A stretch of 64,000 nt of DNA from Catenulispora sp. MAP5-51. Lineage in GTDB: Bacteria > Actinomycetota > Actinomycetes > Streptomycetales > Catenulisporaceae. Numbering within the stretch: position 1 is the stretch's first letter; each line of letters begins with the position of its first letter. The position numbers were made by a program, and so were the translations under genes. This document shows positions 24,879 through 32,650 of this stretch, piece after piece. Where the stretch lies: NCBI RefSeq assembly GCF_041261205.1, contig NZ_JBGCCH010000001.1:310001-374000 (forward strand), written 5' to 3'. Under the pieces are notes generated by a model. That model had not been told where the DNA came from. It did no database searches and saw nothing but the letters and a program-made list of their open reading frames with translations.

Positions 24879-26978
24879 GTGAGAAGAGTCCCCTTCGCCA
24901 CGGCCGTCGCCTCGATCTGCCTGATCCTGGCCACGGCCCTGTCCGGCTGCCAAAGCGACTCGGCGGCCTCGCCCGCCCCGTCCACCGCCCCGGTGGGCAA
25001 GTCCGCACAGAGCATCCAGATCGGCGGCGCCACCCGCACCTTCCACCTCTACCGGCCGCAGGACCTGCCGGCCCACGCACCCCTGGTCGTCATGCTCCAC
25101 GGCGGCTTCGGCAGCGGCACCCAGGCCGAGCAGGCCTACGGATGGGACCAGGAAGCCGACCACAACGCCTTCGCCGTGGCCTACCCCGACGGCCTGAACC
25201 ACGCCTGGAACACCGGAGGCGGCTGCTGCGGCACCCCGGCGAAACAGAACACCGACGACGTCGCCTTCATCAAGGCCATGCTGACGACCATCCAGGCCGA
25301 GATCCCGATCGACCCGGCCCGCATCTACGCCACCGGCATCTCCAACGGCGGCATCATGGCCTACCGCCTGGCCTGCGACACCAACCTGTTCGCCGCCATC
25401 GGCCCCGACTCGGCAACCCTCCTGGGCACCTGCCCCACCCCGAAACCCCTGTCGGTCCTCCACATCCACGGCACCGCCGACACCCGCATCCCCTACGCAG
25501 GCGGCGAAGGCCAGGGCTACGCCCACATCAACGGCCCACCGGTCCAAACCGTGGTGGCGACCTGGCGCACCACCGACGCCTGCGCAGCACCGACACAGAC
25601 CACCGCCGGCCCCCTCACCACCTCGACAGCATCCTGCCCGAACGGGCGCACCGTCGAGCTGATCAGCATCGCCGGCGCAGGCCACCAGTGGCCGGGAAGC
25701 GCGCAGAAGCCTGTGAAAGAGGCCTTGCTGGGGACCGATCCGCCCTCGAAGGCGCTGAACGCGACGGATGTGTTCTGGCAGTTCTTCGCGGCGCATCCGA
25801 AGGTGGGTCAGGGCGGCACTGCCGTGTATTCGCCGGACCGCCCCGGATCAGTGGCGGCTGAACGCCACGAACTTGCCGAAGTGATTGCCGCTGAAGGTGT
25901 TCCCGGACCCGCCGTCCCGGTCTGCGATGTCGGCGGGCTTGTTGCCGGTGATCTTGTTGCCGGTGACGGTGTTGTCGGTGTCGGGGCCGCCTTTGTAGCT
26001 GCGGAAGAGGACGACGCCGCCGGACATGGGGGAGGCGCCGACGTTGCCGTGGATGCGGTTGTGGGTCAGGACCGTCTTCTCCACGCCGGTGAGGACGATG
26101 CCGATGCCTTGCAGGTACGGCAGCCTGTCCTTCGGGGGGCAGTACTCGTTGTTCGTGCTCACCTGGTTGTTGCGGATGGTCAGGTCGCCGCCGCGGGGGA
26201 CGCCGTCGTCGCCGACGACGAAGACCCCCGAGCAGTTGCCGGTGACGGTGTTGTTCTTGAACACCAGGTTGCGGGCCCGGCGCAGGTCCGCGCCGAACCG
26301 GTTCGCGGTCATCCGATTGCCGGCGATCACGGTGCCCTCCGTGTCGATCGCGCCGCCCTTGCCGTTGGCCATGTTCGTCACGAAGATCCCGGCCTGGCCG
26401 TTGCCGACGGCCTGGTTGCCGATCAGCCGGCCGCGTGTCGACTTCTCCTGGCTGATGCCTTCCGCGCCGTTGCCGTTGACCAGGACGTGGCGCACCGTCA
26501 TCCGGTCGGTCCCGGAGCCCGAGACGCCGTTCTGGGGGAAGTCCGAGACGGTGAGGGACTCGATGCGTACGCCGGTCACCGGGTGGTCGGCCGTCCCGAG
26601 CACACAGATGCCGTTGCCGGGAGCCGAACAGTCGTCGCCCACGGGCTCGGCGCCGCCGACCCCCTGAGCCGATCCCGTGGCGGCACCGGCCGGGGCGGCC
26701 GGAGTGATCACGGTCGCGGCACCGGCGCCCCGGATGGTCAGGCCCGAGACGCCGACCAGGACGCTTCCGTGGTAGACGCCGGGCAGCAGCACGATCGTGT
26801 CGCCGGCATGCGCCGCGTCGACGGCCCGCTGGACCGACCCGCCGGGCCGGACGACGATCCGGGCGGACCTGGAGGCGGAAGCCGAAGCGGCCAGGGCGGG
26901 CAGCGCGGCGGCCACCATCGCCGTGCCGCTGGCGAGGACGCCCGCACCGGTGATCATCAGACTTCGGGCACGACGTGA
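24879..26978 (+). CDS. LpqC-type PHB depolymerase/feruloyl esterase lipoprotein; reading frame lacks its normal stop
   Basis: Starts at GTG 24879 with GGAG close upstream. A lipobox (ALSGC) makes it a surface lipoprotein. The first ~310 residues are a complete esterase: HGGFGSG oxyanion loop, S155 in GISNGG, D201 in HGTADTR, H269 in GAGHQW, C-terminal FWQFFAAHP. The family ends here, yet the frame continues without a stop for ~390 more codons, wholly antisense to the beta-helix gene, with no plausible protein character. The true stop seems lost by a small mutation, or the database entry has an error. The functional gene ends near 25810. Confidence 0.75.
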   Translation: MRRVPFATAVASICLILATALSGCQSDSAASPAPSTAPVGKSAQSIQIGGATRTFHLYRPQDLPAHAPLVVMLHGGFGSGTQAEQAYGWDQEADHNAFAVAYPDGLNHAWNTGGGCCGTPAKQNTDDVAFIKAMLTTIQAEIPIDPARIYATGISNGGIMAYRLACDTNLFAAIGPDSATLLGTCPTPKPLSVLHIHGTADTRIPYAGGEGQGYAHINGPPVQTVVATWRTTDACAAPTQTTAGPLTTSTASCPNGRTVELISIAGAGHQWPGSAQKPVKEALLGTDPPSKALNATDVFWQFFAAHPKVGQGGTAVYSPDRPGSVAAERHELAEVIAAEGVPGPAVPVCDVGGLVAGDLVAGDGVVGVGAAFVAAEEDDAAGHGGGADVAVDAVVGQDRLLHAGEDDADALQVRQPVLRGAVLVVRAHLVVADGQVAAAGDAVVADDEDPRAVAGDGVVLEHQVAGPAQVRAEPVRGHPIAGDHGALRVDRAALAVGHVRHEDPGLAVADGLVADQPAACRLLLADAFRAVAVDQDVAHRHPVGPGARDAVLGEVRDGEGLDAYAGHRVVGRPEHTDAVAGSRTVVAHGLGAADPLSRSRGGTGRGGRSDHGRGTGAPDGQARDADQDASVVDAGQQHDRVAGMRRVDGPLDRPAGPDDDPGGPGGGSRSGQGGQRGGHHRRAAGEDARTGDHQTSGTT

Positions 26979-26984
26979 GGGCAT
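25848..26984 (-). CDS. Secreted right-handed parallel beta-helix protein (NosD/pectate-lyase-like fold)
   Basis: 378 residues from ATG 26984, chosen because AAGGAGA precedes it; an ATG 21 nt upstream is less likely. A signal peptide (~35 residues, ending PALAASA) is followed by IVVRPGGSVQRAVDAAHAGDTIVLLPGVY, the usual opening of such helices. Many short NxVxGN coils then follow (IGNQAVGNGQAG, IAGNRMTANRFGAD, FKNNTVTGNCSG, IRNNQVSTNNEY, VTGNKITGNKPAD). Members bind or cleave polysaccharides; no catalytic residues can be named with confidence. It converges on the esterase. Confidence 0.85.
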   Translation of the reverse strand: MPSRRARSLMITGAGVLASGTAMVAAALPALAASASASRSARIVVRPGGSVQRAVDAAHAGDTIVLLPGVYHGSVLVGVSGLTIRGAGAATVITPAAPAGAATGSAQGVGGAEPVGDDCSAPGNGICVLGTADHPVTGVRIESLTVSDFPQNGVSGSGTDRMTVRHVLVNGNGAEGISQEKSTRGRLIGNQAVGNGQAGIFVTNMANGKGGAIDTEGTVIAGNRMTANRFGADLRRARNLVFKNNTVTGNCSGVFVVGDDGVPRGGDLTIRNNQVSTNNEYCPPKDRLPYLQGIGIVLTGVEKTVLTHNRIHGNVGASPMSGGVVLFRSYKGGPDTDNTVTGNKITGNKPADIADRDGGSGNTFSGNHFGKFVAFSRH

Positions 26985-27135
26985 TGCTTCCCATCTCCTT
27001 GCCATAGGCGAGTTCGGCTGTTGAGACGACTCAGACTCCCTGACGTTATGGGCCAGCCGCGGCGCTCGCTAACGGACGTTGGGCCGGATGGGTCCGCATC
27101 CTCGTTCCCCGGCTCGGCAATCAGCCCGCCAACGC

Positions 27136-27830
27136 TCACTCACGCGGCGTTTCGGGCGTGTCGCTGCCGGGGTGCCGACGACGACGGAGCGAGAGGTTGG
27201 CCTGCACCGAGGTGATCTGCAACTGTGCGGAATCGCGGTGGTGCTCGGCCCAGGCATCCCGCGTCGCGGGGTCCGCGAACTCCGCCCCGATCACGCCGTC
27301 GCCGTTGACGATGCCGAACGCCTCGAAGCCGCCGTGGTCGGCTGCGTAGTCTTGGGCAAGGGCGAGGAAGTCGGGGTCATGATGGTCGACGTGGATGTCG
27401 GCCGCGGTGACCACTGCGTCGGTGATCGCGCAGACCGCGGTCCGTCCTCAGCCAGAGCCTCCTGTTTGAACGCCACGACTTGGTCCTTGACGGCGCGGCG
27501 CATCGCGGTCAGGACACGGTCCCTGTGTGTGGCCGGGGTGAGGCATCGCAGAAAGCTGAAGTCCGTGACGGTGCCGTCGACGCGGATGATGAAGAAGCCC
27601 GGCTGGTGGAACTCCTCGGTGAGCCGGACCTCGAAGTGGTCGATGCCGACGCCGCGCTTGCCTGCCGCGTCCTGATGCAGTTCCAGCAGGTCGTGGAGGA
27701 AGGCCTCATCAGGCGGATCGTCGATGACCGAGCCTGGCGGGTAACGGTAGAGCAGATCACGGCAGGCCTGCTGGGCGTCTCCCTTGCGCGGAAAGTAGAC
27801 GTCGCCGATGATCACGGGTTTGGCGACCAT
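27136..27830 (-). pseudogene. DCL/DUF3223 family protein, split by a frameshift
   Basis: Start at ATG 27830 with a perfect AGGAGG, 10 bp after the helicase stop, so it is second in that operon. The first frame encodes a DCL-type domain (VYFPRKGDAQQAC, DEAFLHDLLELHQ, GKRGVGIDHFEVR, FFIIRVDGTVTDFSFLRCL) and runs out of coding sense near 27435. The next frame picks up as CAITDAVVTAADIHVDHHDP, resembling the HNH-like ending of DUF3223 proteins, and continues to the stop at 27136. One base change near 27425-27445 would join them into ~230 residues. A natural break or a sequencing error are both possible. Function unknown; a DNA-binding or nuclease role is an inference. Confidence 0.7.
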
Positions 27831-27840
27831 GGGTCCTCCT

Positions 27841-30288
27841 TCAACCGGAGTCCGCCGAAGCGATGCGTTGTCGGACGGGGGTCGGGAAGCCGGCGGGCGT
27901 TCGGTGCCCACGCAGCTTGAGCTGGAGCAAGCCGCGAAGGCTGGCCAGTGAGCGAGTGCAGCCCAACGATTGCAGGAACTCCTCGACGCTCCAGGTGATC
28001 ATCGCGCCCTGGCGGGAGAGGTAGAGCCCGAGGCGGTTGATGCGATAGCGGTCGTCGTAGTCCAGGAGCAGGTATCCGGCGAGCTGGTAGATCTCCTCGC
28101 GCCCCAGCGAGCGGGGGTGCCGGGTGGCTTTGCAATCCAGGAGGAGTCCGTCGAGGATGAAGTCGGCATCGGCGCCTCCGAGATCGGCGCTTCCTGCGAA
28201 GGCGGGCCCGCAGACTTTCTTGCCGCTCGGCAGCGCGCGCAGCGCGGCGAAGGGATCGATCGAGAGTGCGAATTGGCGGGCCAGGTCTTCGATGGCGTAC
28301 TCCGGTACCGCCGCGGTCAGCTTTGAGAGAGTGATCTGCGATGTGGCGCCCAGGAGCATGTTGCCGCGTTGAAGGCGTCCAGTGCGATAGATGGCTTCGT
28401 AGGAGGCCGCGACAAAGCACAGACGGCTGAGTTGTTCCTCATCCAGTGAGGATGTTCCGTCGAGGTGATGCCGTAGCAGGGTCTGTAGTTCCATACCGGC
28501 GGCCTGGAGTGCGGTTCGGGTTGCGGTGTCCGGTGCGCCTGGCAACTGCACCCTTGTGCCGAGCACAGTCACTCCGTGGGACACGGCGTCGCCGAGGCTG
28601 GATCCCAGGGACAGCCGTAGGCGGTAGTCGATCGCGTGGCCGAGGTCGGGCCAGGCGGGGGATCGGACGTCGATGGGCTGGACGGGGTGCGGGAGTGGCG
28701 CGGCGAACTTCAGGTACCGGACGTGCAGTGGGCCCACATGCGGAAGGTGCTCGGCCATGAAGCGCGAAACCGGGGATTCGGAGAACTTCAGCTGCCCGGT
28801 GAGCGGGAGTCCTGCGAGCGCTTCCGTGCTCGGCCGTGAGCCGGTCTCCACGGCCCGCTTCTCGTAGTCGCCGATCCAGGACAGAGATGACTGGTCGAGC
28901 ACGTGGCGGGCGCGGGTGACCGCGACATAGATCAGCCGTGCCTCGTCGGCACGCAGCGGACGCTGCAGCCCGTTCTCGTCGAAGGACGGCGCGTGGAAGC
29001 CAGCACCGATGCGTACGGTGTTCCACTCACGCCCCTTGGACTTGTGCGCGGTGGAGATGATGACGCGGGCCTCCTGCTCGTCCGACAGCCGGCCCACCGC
29101 GTCGATGATGGTGTCGGGGCCGAAGCTGTCGATGAGGTTGACGATGGTGCGCAGGCTCTGGGCTTCCGGGTCGCTGTCGGCGTAGTCCTGGACTTCGCCC
29201 CAGTTCGCGAACAGGAACAGTTCCGGATGACTGGTCCGCCGCCCGGCCTTCAGGTCGATGGCTGCCTCGGCCAGGCGTCTGAGCTCTTTGCCGCCGCCGA
29301 CGAGCGCGACGGGTATGCCCTGGTCCAGATGCGTGAGTACTTCGCGCATGGCGTCGGCGTTGCCCCGGCACAGCACCGCGTCGGGACGGTCGAGCGCGCG
29401 GACGGCACTGTCTCCCGGCCCTCGTCCTGTCAGGCGCATCTCGGAGCCGGCGTGGGCGAGCCAGCGGTTGGCCTCGTCGGCGATCGGGGGACCGAACCGA
29501 AAGGATTCGGTCAGGAAGAGGTGGTCGGCGGGGAAGCCGGTCATCACATCGCGTGCGTTGCGCCACGCGTAGATCTGCTGTGCTGGATCGCCGACGCACA
29601 CGCGTTGGGCGTCCTGTGCCAGGAAGACCTCCTCGACCACGGGGTTGGTGTCCTGTGCCTCGTCGAGCAGGATGAAGTCGGCCGCGAGCACCGGGCGGGA
29701 CAGCCCCCACATCTTCATGTAGTGCTCGTGGTCGAACTTCAGTACGCCGTCGAGCGCGCAGATGTCCTCCCATGCCTGGCGCGCGTACGGAAGGAGCTGC
29801 TGGGACAAGCGGTCTTGAGCGGCGGGGTCCAGGCCGTTGACGCGTGCCATGTGCCGAGCCGACACCTCTGGATCGGCGGTGCGGCAGTAGCGGGCGACCA
29901 TCTCCATGACCAGGCGAGCCTGATGGGCCTGGGTGATCTGGATCGTTCCCTCTTGCACGGCATCGGTGAGTCCGAGAAGCCTCGCGGTCTCCTTCCCCGG
30001 ACGGCGCGGCGAGTGTTCGAGCCTGTGTTTGTAGCGGACGCCCACCGCTTGGTAGGCGAGGGCGTGCGATGTACGACATTCGACGTTGCCGCCGAAACGG
30101 CGTCGGGCATCTTCGGCAGCGGCCTTGTTGTATGCCATGTACAGGCCGCGCTTCCTTGTGGCCGAACCCATCAGCACCAGAGTCGAGGTCTTGCCCGCTC
30201 CCGCACCCGCGATCAGCGCCAGATCGCCGCCCGAGGCGAACGCGTCGCGAGCCGCCTGCTGCTCCGCCGTGGCCTGAATCATCCCCAC
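27841..30288 (-). CDS. UvrD/FBH1-like SF1 helicase with C-terminal PD-(D/E)XK nuclease domain
   Basis: 815 residues from GTG 30288 (ATG 30282 also possible). All SF1A motifs are present: Q-motif (ATAEQQAARDAF), Walker A (GAGAGKTST), MAYNKAAAEDARRRF and ECRTSHALAY (typical of FBH1-like enzymes), Walker B (LLDEAQDTN), VGDPAQQIYAWR, LTESFRF, STAHKSKGREW, YVAVTRAR. Residues ~690-770 look like a PD-(D/E)XK nuclease: D709, then D718-C-K720, and Q735 (IYQLAGYLLL). The protein should unwind and cut DNA. It heads an operon with the DUF3223 gene and diverges from a CoiA-like nuclease. Base composition looks less GC-rich than the neighbours. Confidence 0.85.
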   Translation of the reverse strand: MGMIQATAEQQAARDAFASGGDLALIAGAGAGKTSTLVLMGSATRKRGLYMAYNKAAAEDARRRFGGNVECRTSHALAYQAVGVRYKHRLEHSPRRPGKETARLLGLTDAVQEGTIQITQAHQARLVMEMVARYCRTADPEVSARHMARVNGLDPAAQDRLSQQLLPYARQAWEDICALDGVLKFDHEHYMKMWGLSRPVLAADFILLDEAQDTNPVVEEVFLAQDAQRVCVGDPAQQIYAWRNARDVMTGFPADHLFLTESFRFGPPIADEANRWLAHAGSEMRLTGRGPGDSAVRALDRPDAVLCRGNADAMREVLTHLDQGIPVALVGGGKELRRLAEAAIDLKAGRRTSHPELFLFANWGEVQDYADSDPEAQSLRTIVNLIDSFGPDTIIDAVGRLSDEQEARVIISTAHKSKGREWNTVRIGAGFHAPSFDENGLQRPLRADEARLIYVAVTRARHVLDQSSLSWIGDYEKRAVETGSRPSTEALAGLPLTGQLKFSESPVSRFMAEHLPHVGPLHVRYLKFAAPLPHPVQPIDVRSPAWPDLGHAIDYRLRLSLGSSLGDAVSHGVTVLGTRVQLPGAPDTATRTALQAAGMELQTLLRHHLDGTSSLDEEQLSRLCFVAASYEAIYRTGRLQRGNMLLGATSQITLSKLTAAVPEYAIEDLARQFALSIDPFAALRALPSGKKVCGPAFAGSADLGGADADFILDGLLLDCKATRHPRSLGREEIYQLAGYLLLDYDDRYRINRLGLYLSRQGAMITWSVEEFLQSLGCTRSLASLRGLLQLKLRGHRTPAGFPTPVRQRIASADSG

Positions 30289-30340
30289 CCTGTCCTCAAC
30301 GCCGACTGAATCAGAGGTCTACCATAGGCGCAACGCGCAC

Positions 30341-30380
30341 ATCGACGCTTATGTCAGAGTTCGTAGTTACTCTGACAGTG
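30341..30380 (+). promoter_or_regulatory. Leaderless promoter with perfect inverted-repeat operator
   Basis: TGTCAGAGT (30352-30360) and ACTCTGACA (30369-30377) are perfectly complementary 9-bp arms around an 8-bp spacer. They end 2 nt before the GTG start at 30380. A candidate promoter (ATCGAC 30341-30346, 17-bp spacer, TAGTTA 30364-30369) would start transcription at about the GTG. No Shine-Dalgarno is present. The repeat would occlude the -10 region if bound. Confidence 0.6.
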
Positions 30381-31726
30381 TGACTCAGACTGTCTGGCAC
30401 GCTGGGTACCGCATCGCCATCAACCTGTCACTGGACGACCTCGGACATCCTGACCGGCCGGGTCTGTGGGAAGAGATCTACAAGCCGGACCCGTCCCGGC
30501 CTCGTCTTCTGCGCTGCATGGCGATCGACGATGACGACGGCACGGAGTGCCCTGAGGCGATGTACATCCTGGTGCGAGACGGTCTCCGTATCGCCTCTCA
30601 CTGGCGAAGCGGTGCGAAGCCGCATCGGAATGAGGGCCCCAAGCACAAGGCGCTCAAAGAGCGGATAGCGAACGTCGCGCAGCGTGCCGGCTTCGCCGCC
30701 GACGTCGAGGATGTCTCCGCGGACGGAACCCGGCGTACGGACGTCCTGGTCGGCGGGGGCGACGGCGGTCCCATCGGATGGGAGATCCAGTTCTCGCACA
30801 TCACCGGCCCCGCGGCGATCAAGCGCACCGCGACTGCCAAGGTCCACGGCATCACGCCGATGTGGACGGTCGACCACGACCGGTCGCAGGTCATCGACCG
30901 GGGGCCGTGGAACCGTCTGGACAAGATCACGGACTGGCGGCAGGTCGCGGGCAAGCAGCTGAACGTCCGAGGCGGCGTTCGCACCTTGCGCATGGAACGC
31001 TGCCAGAAGGGCTTCGGGCCGTGTCCGGTGAAGAAGCGCGGGTCGTGCGGAGACTGGCACGGCGTTTGGCTCGCGGCCAGAGGCGTGTACCTCGACAGCT
31101 TCGTGGCCGAGACCGCCGCGGGCGAGTACGTGCCGCTCTACCGGCCGGCCACCACACGCCGCGGCGGGAACTACATGTGGGTCACGCCGGTCGACAAGGC
31201 CGAGTTCCTTCAAGACCGCACTGAGGTGGACCCCTACGCCGGCGTCGGGACGCTGGAGACCGAGCCGGGTGACTGCCAGGTCCCCAAGCCCATCGACCCG
31301 CGGTGCCACTACGGCGAGCCCGGCAAACCGGCGACGAAGCGCGCGCCTCGCGATACCGGCGACCGGATAGCCGTCGGCGAGTGGCTCACGCGAGCCTTCG
31401 CGGACGGCCCCGGCGTGGGAGTGACCGACCCGGACCGTGTCCCCGACGAACTGGTGCGGCTCCAGCTGGCCTTCCTCCGGGCGGACGCGGAATGTGAGCG
31501 AATCAGCGCCGCGCTGCCGTCGAGCCTGGACGTCGTGGCAGGCCTGGCGGTCATCGACGCCCAGCAGCGTGTCGACCTGGAGGTGGCGCGGGCGGAGCGG
31601 CTCGAAGTCGTTCTGGCCAAGTATGAGCACCCCTGGTGGGGCGTTGTCGCCAACCGCTATGAGGCCGATGTGCGACTGCGTGCGGTCGTTCAAGAACGTG
31701 TGGACAGGGCACGGCGCCAGGTGTGA
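30380..31726 (+). CDS. Competence CoiA-like nuclease family protein
   Basis: 448 residues from GTG 30380, probably leaderless. Residues ~70-165 resemble the CoiA nuclease core, a PD-(D/E)XK variant: SHWRSG, E85 and H89 in NEGPKHKALKER, D121 in RRTDVLVG, and E135-x-Q137 in WEIQFSH, followed by KRTATAKVHGITPMWTVDH. CoiA proteins act on incoming DNA during transformation, but in actinobacteria their job is not known. The remaining ~280 residues contain cysteines (RCQKGFGPCPVKKRGSCGDW) that may bind metal and a helical C-terminus. It is divergent from the helicase-nuclease, with 91 bp between. A terminator follows. Confidence 0.78.
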   Translation: MTQTVWHAGYRIAINLSLDDLGHPDRPGLWEEIYKPDPSRPRLLRCMAIDDDDGTECPEAMYILVRDGLRIASHWRSGAKPHRNEGPKHKALKERIANVAQRAGFAADVEDVSADGTRRTDVLVGGGDGGPIGWEIQFSHITGPAAIKRTATAKVHGITPMWTVDHDRSQVIDRGPWNRLDKITDWRQVAGKQLNVRGGVRTLRMERCQKGFGPCPVKKRGSCGDWHGVWLAARGVYLDSFVAETAAGEYVPLYRPATTRRGGNYMWVTPVDKAEFLQDRTEVDPYAGVGTLETEPGDCQVPKPIDPRCHYGEPGKPATKRAPRDTGDRIAVGEWLTRAFADGPGVGVTDPDRVPDELVRLQLAFLRADAECERISAALPSSLDVVAGLAVIDAQQRVDLEVARAERLEVVLAKYEHPWWGVVANRYEADVRLRAVVQERVDRARRQV

Positions 31727-31767
31727 TGACGACGCAGCCGCCCTGTGCGATGACGGATAGCAGCAGG

Positions 31768-31793
31768 TCGGGGCCGCCCGAAGGCGGCCCCGA
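31768..31793. terminator. Bidirectional terminator between CoiA-like and SDR genes
   Basis: Perfect 11-bp stem (31768-31778 with 31783-31793) with a CGAA loop, between two converging genes. Its core equals the hairpin at 19604-19625. Confidence 0.75.
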
Positions 31794-31810
31794 GCCACAG
31801 CATCAGCCGC

Positions 31811-32650
31811 CTACGACATCATCCCGATCCACTGCCCACCGGTAACGTTCAGCACCTGCCCCGAAACGTAGTTCGACCACGGCGAGCACAGGTAGAACAC
31901 CCCGCCCGCCGCCTCCTCCGGGGTGCCGGGGCGGCCCAGCGGGATCAGGAAGCTGGTCGCGCCGACCATGGCCTCCGGGATGCCCAGTTGGACGGTTTCG
32001 CCGCCGATCTCCATCGTGTTGTCGTCGCTCTTGGCGGCGGTGAGGCGGGTTTCGATGTGGCCGAAGGCTACTGCGTTGACGTTGACCTTGAACTGGCCCC
32101 ATTCCTTGGCCAGGGTCTTTGTCAGGCCTACGACTGCTGATTTGCCGGAGCTGTAGTTCGCCTGGCCGGCGTTGCCCATGGTGCCGGAGACGGAGGAGAT
32201 GTTCACGATCTTGCGGAAGACTTCGATGCCCTGTTCGCGCTCTTTCTTCGCGGGGTCGCGGAAGTAGGGGGCGGCTGCTCGGATGGTGCGGAAGGGGACG
32301 ACGGTGTGGATGTCCAGCATGCGCTGGAACCAGTCGTCGGTCATCAGGTGGATCGGCTTGTCGAGGGTGTAGCCGGCGTTGTTGACCAGGATGTCGATCT
32401 TGCCGAAGCTGTCCGCCGCCTTGGCCACCAGGGCTTCCGGGATGCCTTCGGCGGTCAGGTCGCCGGCGAAGACGGCGGTGTCGGTGCCGTGGGCCTTGGC
32501 GATCTCGGCCGCGGTCTCGGCGGCGGCGTCGCCGTCGAGGTCGTTGATCAGGACGCCGGCGCCCTGCGAGGCCAGCAGGTCGGCGGTGGCGCGTCCGATG
32601 CCGCGCGCCGATCCGGTGACGATCGCGACCTTGCCGTCCAGGACTCCCAT
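31811..32650 (-). CDS. SDR oxidoreductase, 3-oxoacyl-[acyl carrier protein] reductase-like
   Basis: 279 residues from ATG 32650. Classical SDR motifs are present: TGSARGIG cofactor site, NNAG, catalytic Ser in NISSVSG, and YSSGK (Tyr-x3-Lys). FabG-like enzymes reduce 3-oxoacyl groups or oxidise 3-hydroxyacyl-CoA. It is directly downstream of the MaoC hydratase gene on the same strand, so a joint role in fatty-acid or sterol side-chain beta-oxidation is likely. Confidence 0.9.
   Translation of the reverse strand: MGVLDGKVAIVTGSARGIGRATADLLASQGAGVLINDLDGDAAAETAAEIAKAHGTDTAVFAGDLTAEGIPEALVAKAADSFGKIDILVNNAGYTLDKPIHLMTDDWFQRMLDIHTVVPFRTIRAAAPYFRDPAKKEREQGIEVFRKIVNISSVSGTMGNAGQANYSSGKSAVVGLTKTLAKEWGQFKVNVNAVAFGHIETRLTAAKSDDNTMEIGGETVQLGIPEAMVGATSFLIPLGRPGTPEEAAGGVFYLCSPWSNYVSGQVLNVTGGQWIGMMS

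Follow-up and report, generated by a model that had tools for sequence, protein, structure and literature searches.

A helicase-nuclease gene with DCL and CoiA-like neighbours in Catenulispora: an apparent chromosomal insertion with relatives on linear Streptomyces plasmids

What are three genes for proteins acting on nucleic acids doing side by side among unrelated, ordinary genes of an actinobacterial chromosome? The question is raised by a locus found in a stretch of 64,000 nucleotides of Catenulispora sp. MAP5-51 (contig NZ_JBGCCH010000001.1, positions 310,001 to 374,000; hereafter the window), a strain whose genome is available as 10.9 Mb in 87 contigs. A first-pass annotation had seen in this set, made up of an FBH1-like helicase-nuclease, a DCL/DUF3223 protein and a divergent CoiA-like nuclease, a candidate defence or DNA-uptake island, and its description of the genes as nucleic-acid-acting is supported. 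The answer favoured here, tentatively and with about as much doubt as confidence, is that the locus is a 4.7 kb cassette captured from an actinobacterial, largely linear, plasmid pool, and that it would serve plasmid DNA processing with a HamC-like accessory. The components of the locus are the following.

27097..31770, no strand: inserted island, 4,674 bp, replacing 170 bp (L046:2044-2213) of the closest relative, genome G008; limits set by local alignment of the two flanks
27841..30288, minus strand: FBH1/UvrD-like helicase with C-terminal PD-(D/E)XK nuclease, 815 aa; GTG start, with an ATG at 30282 as alternative
28084..28164, minus strand: PD-(D/E)XK core of the helicase (D709, D718-C-K720, Q735), from motif alignment
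27136..27830, minus strand: DCL/DUF3223 (HamC-like) gene, dcl, frame broken; start 10 bp past the helicase stop
27433..27442, no strand: perfect palindrome of 10 nt at the dcl frame break
30380..31726, plus strand: CoiA-like nuclease gene, coi, 448 aa, divergent from the helicase gene, the starts being 91 bp apart
30740..30790, plus strand: core of the CoiA-like protein (D121, E135-x-Q137), present in 12 of 12 homologues

UvrD-helicase and UvrD_C domains were detected in the helicase above the Pfam cut-offs. Among solved structures the closest is that of F-box DNA helicase 1 (PDB 9xzj; phmmer E 4.9e-36, profile E 7e-57), the match being about 100 bits above Rep/UvrD. Since this match begins at residue 23 of the query and at residue 388 of the chain, there is no room for an N-terminal F-box: the protein shares its helicase core with FBH1 and with the FBH1-like helicases of phages and plasmids, but lacks the F-box half, and features an added C-terminal nuclease. 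Residues D709, D718-C719-K720 and Q735 are invariant in all 10 full-length sequences, as in the 8 aligned nuclease regions, and the nuclease region matches RTasPDDEXK, a defence-associated PD-(D/E)XK profile of PADLOC (E 1.4e-8); a PDB profile search with the nuclease alignment gave nothing useful. The earlier reading of an FBH1-like helicase ending in a PD-(D/E)XK core is thus borne out, and both motor and nuclease motifs are, as far as the sequence tells, intact and conserved. Viral relatives differ: phrog_1967 matches the helicase core (E 6e-96), and the matches of 62 relatives from viral contigs all end at residue 516 or before. RecB and AddA were discarded, the scores being far under the curated cut-offs (33.6 bits vs. 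696 for recB, 21.5 vs. 708 for addA). Gabija also has a UvrD-type motor, and GajB is the top, if weak, PADLOC match of the helicase (E 2.6e-15); yet the similarity is confined to helicase stretches, the nuclease is fused to the motor in the island, and no GajA match was found among the island proteins or nine flanking proteins. Proteins corresponding to the C-terminal part only (nuclease and preceding region), in stretches where the helicase itself had no match, occur in G020 (L127:8011-8967, 318 aa), G567, G110 and G640.

The way in which the locus reached its place is suggested by G008, where the site is empty, and had, SDR, beta-helix and esterase genes are contiguous. By local alignment, the limits of homology between G008 and the window are 31771 towards the SDR gene and 27096 towards the beta-helix gene, within or next to two flanking features.

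31771..32650, minus strand: SDR gene and terminator-like hairpin, left flank of the island
25848..27096, minus strand: beta-helix protein gene and upstream region, right flank of the island, adjoining the SDR gene in G008 too

The SDR flank gene was matched in all 10 Catenulispora genomes searched, and none of the three island genes was found by tblastn at the corresponding place in the nine other Catenulispora, one of the stretches (L053) ending at a contig end. Searches for a target duplication or flanking repeats returned only short matches, taken as chance. In GC content at third codon positions (GC3), the island genes rank first, second and third from the bottom among the 50 window genes of at least 150 aa (0.816, 0.820, 0.844; median 0.942), the value of 0.816 referring to dcl, partly read out of frame; the two in-frame dcl pieces have 0.844 and 0.863, and the next gene 0.875. 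Low GC3 is not unique to the island: values of 0.844 or less were obtained for 12 of 147 genes called in other Catenulispora stretches, one of them a CoiA gene that stands alone in G008. The lower third-codon GC, formerly judged by eye, is confirmed by these ranks; empty site and low GC3 contradict the alternative of vertically inherited core genes of normal composition and, along with a second copy elsewhere in C. pinistramenti, uphold the term island. On the evidence of alignment and composition, the locus is a lateral insertion into the Catenulispora chromosome.

Full-length relatives of the helicase reside in two of the 10 Catenulispora genomes, that of the window and C. pinistramenti (G003). 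The C. pinistramenti helicase is 90% identical and lies at another chromosomal place, between genes resembling, by eye, those of an acyl-CoA dehydrogenase and a response regulator; dcl and coi are both truncated there. The ratio of nonsynonymous to synonymous divergence (dN/dS) of the two helicases is 0.13 (0.13-0.34 in plasmid pairs), and the protein was therefore under constraint, on plasmid or chromosome. Relatives of coi are also found alone, intact in G008 at another place (L122, 87% identity) and as a more distant gene in G007 (L123). The synonymous divergence (dS) of the CoiA gene between window and G008 is 0.55, that of four flanking genes 0.10-0.18, so that the two are unlikely to be vertical orthologues. 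Vertical inheritance followed by loss is disfavoured by dS and by the position of the copies. A phage origin was also rejected: neither DCL nor CoiA had a match in phage records or viral contigs, one of the viral-contig searches being made with a distant DCL of Agrobacterium as query, and only the helicase core was found there. G008 carries in addition a helicase-core relative of 486 aa (L043:9193-10653, 52% identity, no nuclease match), located in a same-strand gene run resembling a putative integrative element.

Outside the genus, the families were monitored in genomes and plasmids. A set of 394 genomes of the class yielded matches to the CoiA-like protein in 21 and to DUF3223 in 2, the own genome being included in both counts, and to the helicase query in 141, mostly via the UvrD core; the C-terminal part of the helicase was matched at 1e-20 in 26 of 382 genomes of the order. 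Full-length helicase loci amount to 18: the window, G003, eight plasmids of PLSDB, G365, G104, G690, G562, G663, G677, G647 and G502, the NBC_00704 plasmid and G121 being one locus among them. Plasmids were drawn from the best 40 of 1909 and 60 of 1440 helicase records, and from 40 of 41 DCL records, and their neighbour tallies rest on the PLSDB gene table, which is incomplete. All eight PLSDB records with a full-length match, among the matches listed, are Streptomyces plasmids annotated as linear.

A DCL gene adjoins the helicase gene in 5 of the 18 loci, namely the window, G003 (where it is broken), the plasmids of S. canus and S. sp. NBC_01334, and G502. The S. canus pair, at L132:6250-9537, is intact. 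In the three Streptomyces loci DCL lies upstream of the helicase, at 150, 334 and about 340 bp, and gene order thus differs from that of the window. A midpoint-rooted tree of 17 rows, from which G502 is absent, places the two Catenulispora sequences apart from the group of S. canus and NBC_01334; the DCL-helicase pairing is hence found on two separate branches and in two gene orders. CoiA-type genes lie within about 2 kb of the helicase in three loci (window, G003 and Alt3), and close to two less related helicases, in S. sp. NBC_00887 and Nocardia transvalensis. Among the plasmid records listed, six have a helicase match and a CoiA homologue, adjacent in one, and five a helicase match and DCL, adjacent in two; all three families coexist on S. 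canus NZ_CP107990 and NBC_01334 NZ_CP130719, CoiA being far off. A conserved system of three linked genes was discarded, as the linked trio was found, among the loci and plasmid records covered, solely in two Catenulispora genomes, in one of which it is decayed. The first-pass annotation had made its case depend on recurrence of the set in other genomes: this fails for the trio, and holds for helicase-DCL pairs in three Streptomyces loci and for CoiA-helicase pairs in three more.

Replication genes, or remnants of them, are present within about 4.5 kb of the helicase in 8 of the 18 loci. A RepL2 gene, so named by the annotators, adjoins the helicase in the S. canus and NBC_01334 plasmids; four plasmids carry genes for Prim-Pol and a P4-type primase at such distance (the annotation was confirmed on a single example of each), and two of the four have ParA/ParB at a greater distance; in G365 and G562 the helicase has a truncated P4 primase and DUF6009 as neighbours. 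In the remaining two plasmids the helicase is about 1 kb from the record end, the gene being split in two in one of them. The distance to the record end is about 0.9 kb in the linear plasmid of S. sp. NBC_00704. Median relative distances to the nearer end are 0.07 in the eight plasmids, 0.50 in 48 records with a CoiA homologue, and 0.39 in 24 core-only records, the latter being Streptomycetaceae records in which the helicase match ends before the nuclease; some of the records used for comparison are circular. Helicase-nuclease genes fall in the terminal 3% of the half-record in 4 of 8 cases, CoiA homologues in 1 of 48, core-only helicases in none of 24. The bias is significant by Mann-Whitney test against both CoiA (p 3.9e-5) and core-only records (p 0.002); closely related plasmid pairs reduce the independent lineages to about five, on which the p values are 3.3e-4 and 0.003. 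In the genus Streptomyces, the distance of the gene from a contig end is about 76 kb in G690 (contig of 5.3 Mb), 47 kb in G562 (8.0 Mb) and 24 kb in G663 (6.7 Mb), no telomere status being assumed, and about 50 kb in G502, where the contig measures 479 kb; G365, G677 and G647, on contigs of 24-156 kb, were left out of the end positions. Orientation of the gene relative to the end is mixed. DCL genes of Streptomycetaceae plasmids exhibit a weaker trend towards the ends (15 records, median 0.27).

A gene with a comparable location is ttrA, which is often found near the ends of Streptomyces linear replicons, chromosomes as well as plasmids. TtrA was excluded as the counterpart of the island helicase because it is a putative DEAD-box protein, whereas the latter has a UvrD (SF1) domain, with a nuclease in addition, and its gene has no fixed orientation to the end. 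TtrA is described as a putative DEAD-box terminal helicase required for SLP2 conjugation (PMC8743542). A precedent by description only, set beside the island helicase with no claim of homology, is PA1372, a horizontally acquired UvrD-like helicase which is reported to affect a plasmid replication gene in Pseudomonas aeruginosa (PMC4410645).

Several observations weigh against a plasmid cassette working at replicon ends. The copies of the window and of G104 are internal, away from ends; 10 of the 18 full-length loci have no replication gene nearby, and 13 have no DCL. RepL2 yields in Pfam only weak helix-turn-helix matches below the cut-offs. The end-bias set is small (eight plasmids, about five lineages), and the bias weakens to p 3.8e-4 and 0.005 when two nuclease-bearing fragments are added. 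Accessory genes are in any case abundant at the ends of Streptomyces chromosomes. The AlphaFold models give no help, that bearing on the PD-(D/E)XK nuclease fold (mean pLDDT, the predicted local distance difference test, 46.6) being too poor to use, and that of the CoiA-like protein, in which residue E94 falls in a helix ahead of the strands, being of very low confidence (mean pLDDT 37) and unusable. Lastly, DCL relatives on the proteobacterial plasmids sampled sit with defence genes; in 7 of 7 such hand-picked loci DCL starts from -1 to 28 bp behind the upstream gene.

This last point calls for a closer description of the DCL gene. The N-terminal part of the island gene (frame 27291-27830, from the ATG at 27830) matches DUF3223 with 61.7 bits over a cut-off of 21, and HamC2 of PADLOC (E 1.8e-26); the C-terminal part, in a different frame (27139-27444, stop at 27136), matches HamC2 as well (E 1.5e-8). 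The frame breaks near the palindrome at 27433-27442, and the break could be a true mutation or a sequencing error at the palindrome, the two being indistinguishable from sequence. The operon partner of the first-pass annotation is accordingly a real DUF3223 gene located behind the helicase, not a single open frame, and the end formerly assigned to it crosses the break. The HNH-like tail also claimed for it is a resemblance only: the pattern C-x2-[TS]-G ... [HN]-x-[DNS]-H-x2-P-x-F is shared by many of the 13 rows aligned but is missing from L121, L148 and L150, and Pfam HNH models do not match the tail. The DCL profile further matches the R. rubrum structure 2K0M and the largest subunits of plant RNA polymerases IV and V.

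HamC is the DUF3223 protein of Hachiman type II, recorded in about 3.8% of Hachiman systems and with unknown function (PMC8565338). DCL loci were inspected in 12 of 41 plasmid records, seven hand-picked from Proteobacteria, two of them chosen because an overlapping neighbour was listed, and five from Streptomyces. In four of the seven the upstream gene belongs by annotation to Hachiman (DUF1837, DEAD/DEAH helicase and DCL), and one such locus was checked with PADLOC (HamA2 E 1e-145, HamB2 E 0). In the fifth, from an Erythrobacteraceae plasmid (L259:1764-4771), a PDC-S06 candidate defence ATPase (E 6e-271) is directly followed by an overlapping DCL gene, which may thus encode a second component of the PDC-S06 candidate. 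In the sixth, from a Bradyrhizobium plasmid (L263:1506-4708), the upstream gene encodes an SMC/LmuB-like ATPase (E 2.6e-21), and the pair adjoins AbiE toxin-antitoxin genes and SbcD; in the seventh it encodes a 498-aa protein of no recognised family. In the three Streptomyces records where DCL stands apart from the helicase, no partner can be recognised, and what precedes DCL is a gene for a hypothetical protein or nothing. DCL being found, with the window, beside four kinds of DNA motor, a general accessory role is suggested.

These data give substance to a second explanation, according to which the locus is a defence module, a helicase-nuclease effector with a DCL accessory built like Hachiman type II on an unrelated motor, which would degrade replicating phage or plasmid DNA, and travel on plasmids as cargo against competitors. 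The explanation is possible, if the less probable of the two. It draws on the HamC2 match, on the position of proteobacterial DCL genes closely behind Hachiman, PDC-S06 or SMC/LmuB-like genes, an order kept in the window where the gap is 10 bp, and on Nocardia transvalensis (L003:1-10109), in which CoiA (E 2.3e-11) abuts an FBH1-like helicase beside type I-G CRISPR genes (Cas_GSU0053, Cas56g); patchy distribution, foreign composition and decay fit as well. As in Hachiman type II, a HamC-type protein accompanies a helicase and a nuclease, and its gene directly follows that of the motor. But HamB is a DEAD-box protein, and the motor of the island an SF1 helicase of UvrD/FBH1 type to which a PD-(D/E)XK domain is fused; neither HamA (DUF1837) nor HamB, nor any other PADLOC defence model, matches at 1e-5 among the nine flanking proteins; the Streptomyces DCL genes, upstream and at larger distance, depart from the defence layout; replication genes or remnants adjoin 8 of 18 helicase loci, and dcl is broken in both Catenulispora copies. 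The defence function formerly proposed is in this light plausible for the HamC match and the company of DCL, less so for the motor, the flanks and the plasmid contexts, and an anti-phage or anti-plasmid activity of the island is to be regarded as no more than plausible. The processing and defence readings overlap, as a plasmid-borne enzyme attacking rival replicons would satisfy both.

A conserved cluster of four genes was noticed near the CoiA homologue in G316 and G378 and near a DUF3223 gene in G252 (L055:10640-15330, L056:12495-17194 and L121:11998-16838). The genes encode proteins of about 262, 366, 489 and 437 aa in L055, are 42-60% identical to those of L121, and those of L055 have weak PADLOC matches only; the cluster may mark an accessory hotspot or an unnamed system.

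The CoiA-like protein had suggested DNA uptake. CoiA_nuc is matched with 32.8 bits over a Pfam cut-off of 20.3, and of the PD-(D/E)XK core proposed earlier all 12 homologues keep D121, E135 and Q137, E85 is not conserved, and E94 and H89 are nearly invariant. The protein has the domain and the D, E-x-Q core of CoiA, and differs from it in extra N- and C-terminal regions and in the invariant residues C208, C215, C223 and H227, a set possibly binding zinc; a PDB profile search with the CoiA alignment gave nothing useful. That the locus is a competence island is very improbable. Relatives of the gene are accessory genes found in 21 of 394 genomes in varied surroundings, and none of 20 loci of CoiA homologues contains the helicase or DCL. 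These loci represent all but one (G069) of the 20 other genomes with a match, and do not include a further site in G316; some stretches are only 4-9 kb long, and several are bounded by contig ends. The genes about the island encode a two-component pair, an esterase, the beta-helix protein, SDR and SCP2 proteins, a FAD/berberine-bridge-type oxidase, MFS and TetR proteins and a HadAB-like protein, the Pfam match of which is below its cut-off. No uptake gene is annotated among them, and the idea of uptake finds no support beyond the CoiA name. The ordinary, unrelated character earlier ascribed to the neighbours is borne out by this annotation, as by the lack of PADLOC matches.

It may also be asked whether the island does anything at all. 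The locus could be a functionless hitch-hiker, a fragment of an integrated plasmid being lost. The broken dcl frame of the window, and the truncation of both dcl and coi in C. pinistramenti, are as expected in this case, and a promoter consensus scan, a weak test for actinobacteria, found a lone site, located inside the helicase gene, with 0.4 expected by chance. The explanation is nevertheless unlikely, as both species retain an intact helicase and the dN/dS is 0.13, though selection may predate capture, on plasmids, and the dcl break could be a sequencing error.

Should the locus be a captured plasmid cassette, as tentatively preferred, a mode of action may be outlined. The SF1A (FBH1-type) motor would load on single-stranded DNA at a fork or an end, and unwind DNA or strip protein from it, while the fused PD-(D/E)XK domain would trim or cut a strand, and the HamC-like DCL protein would be an accessory tuning the enzyme or the substrates that it selects. 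A linear plasmid would draw on the helicase-nuclease for its replication, for the processing of its ends or for recombination. The chromosomal copy, with its helicase gene still intact and dcl broken, would be a partly decayed remnant, and its action may be limited to recombination or to foreign DNA under replication. The CoiA-like gene would be a nuclease gene with a mobility of its own, added to the cassette.

The domains of the island are known ones, in a combination and a setting not found described: no account of an FBH1-type helicase-nuclease partnered by DCL, or of its end-proximal location, was met in full-text searches of open-access literature, though it may carry a name in earlier linear-plasmid studies. 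It is conceivable, if rather doubtful, that these enzymes form an undescribed class of helicase-nucleases of the ends and forks of linear actinobacterial replicons, partly paired with DCL, and that DCL/HamC is a swappable accessory shared by HamAB, PDC-S06, SMC-like ATPases and the FBH1-type enzyme. The general accessory role of DCL is a testable suggestion, and a helicase-nuclease concentrated near the ends of linear plasmids would be a new candidate for the handling of linear-replicon ends, besides Tap/Tpg and TtrA. The island illustrates how such plasmid genes enter chromosomes and decay in them. If the proposal is true, the maintenance of plasmid ends and anti-phage immunity would be linked through one shared subunit, DCL/HamC.

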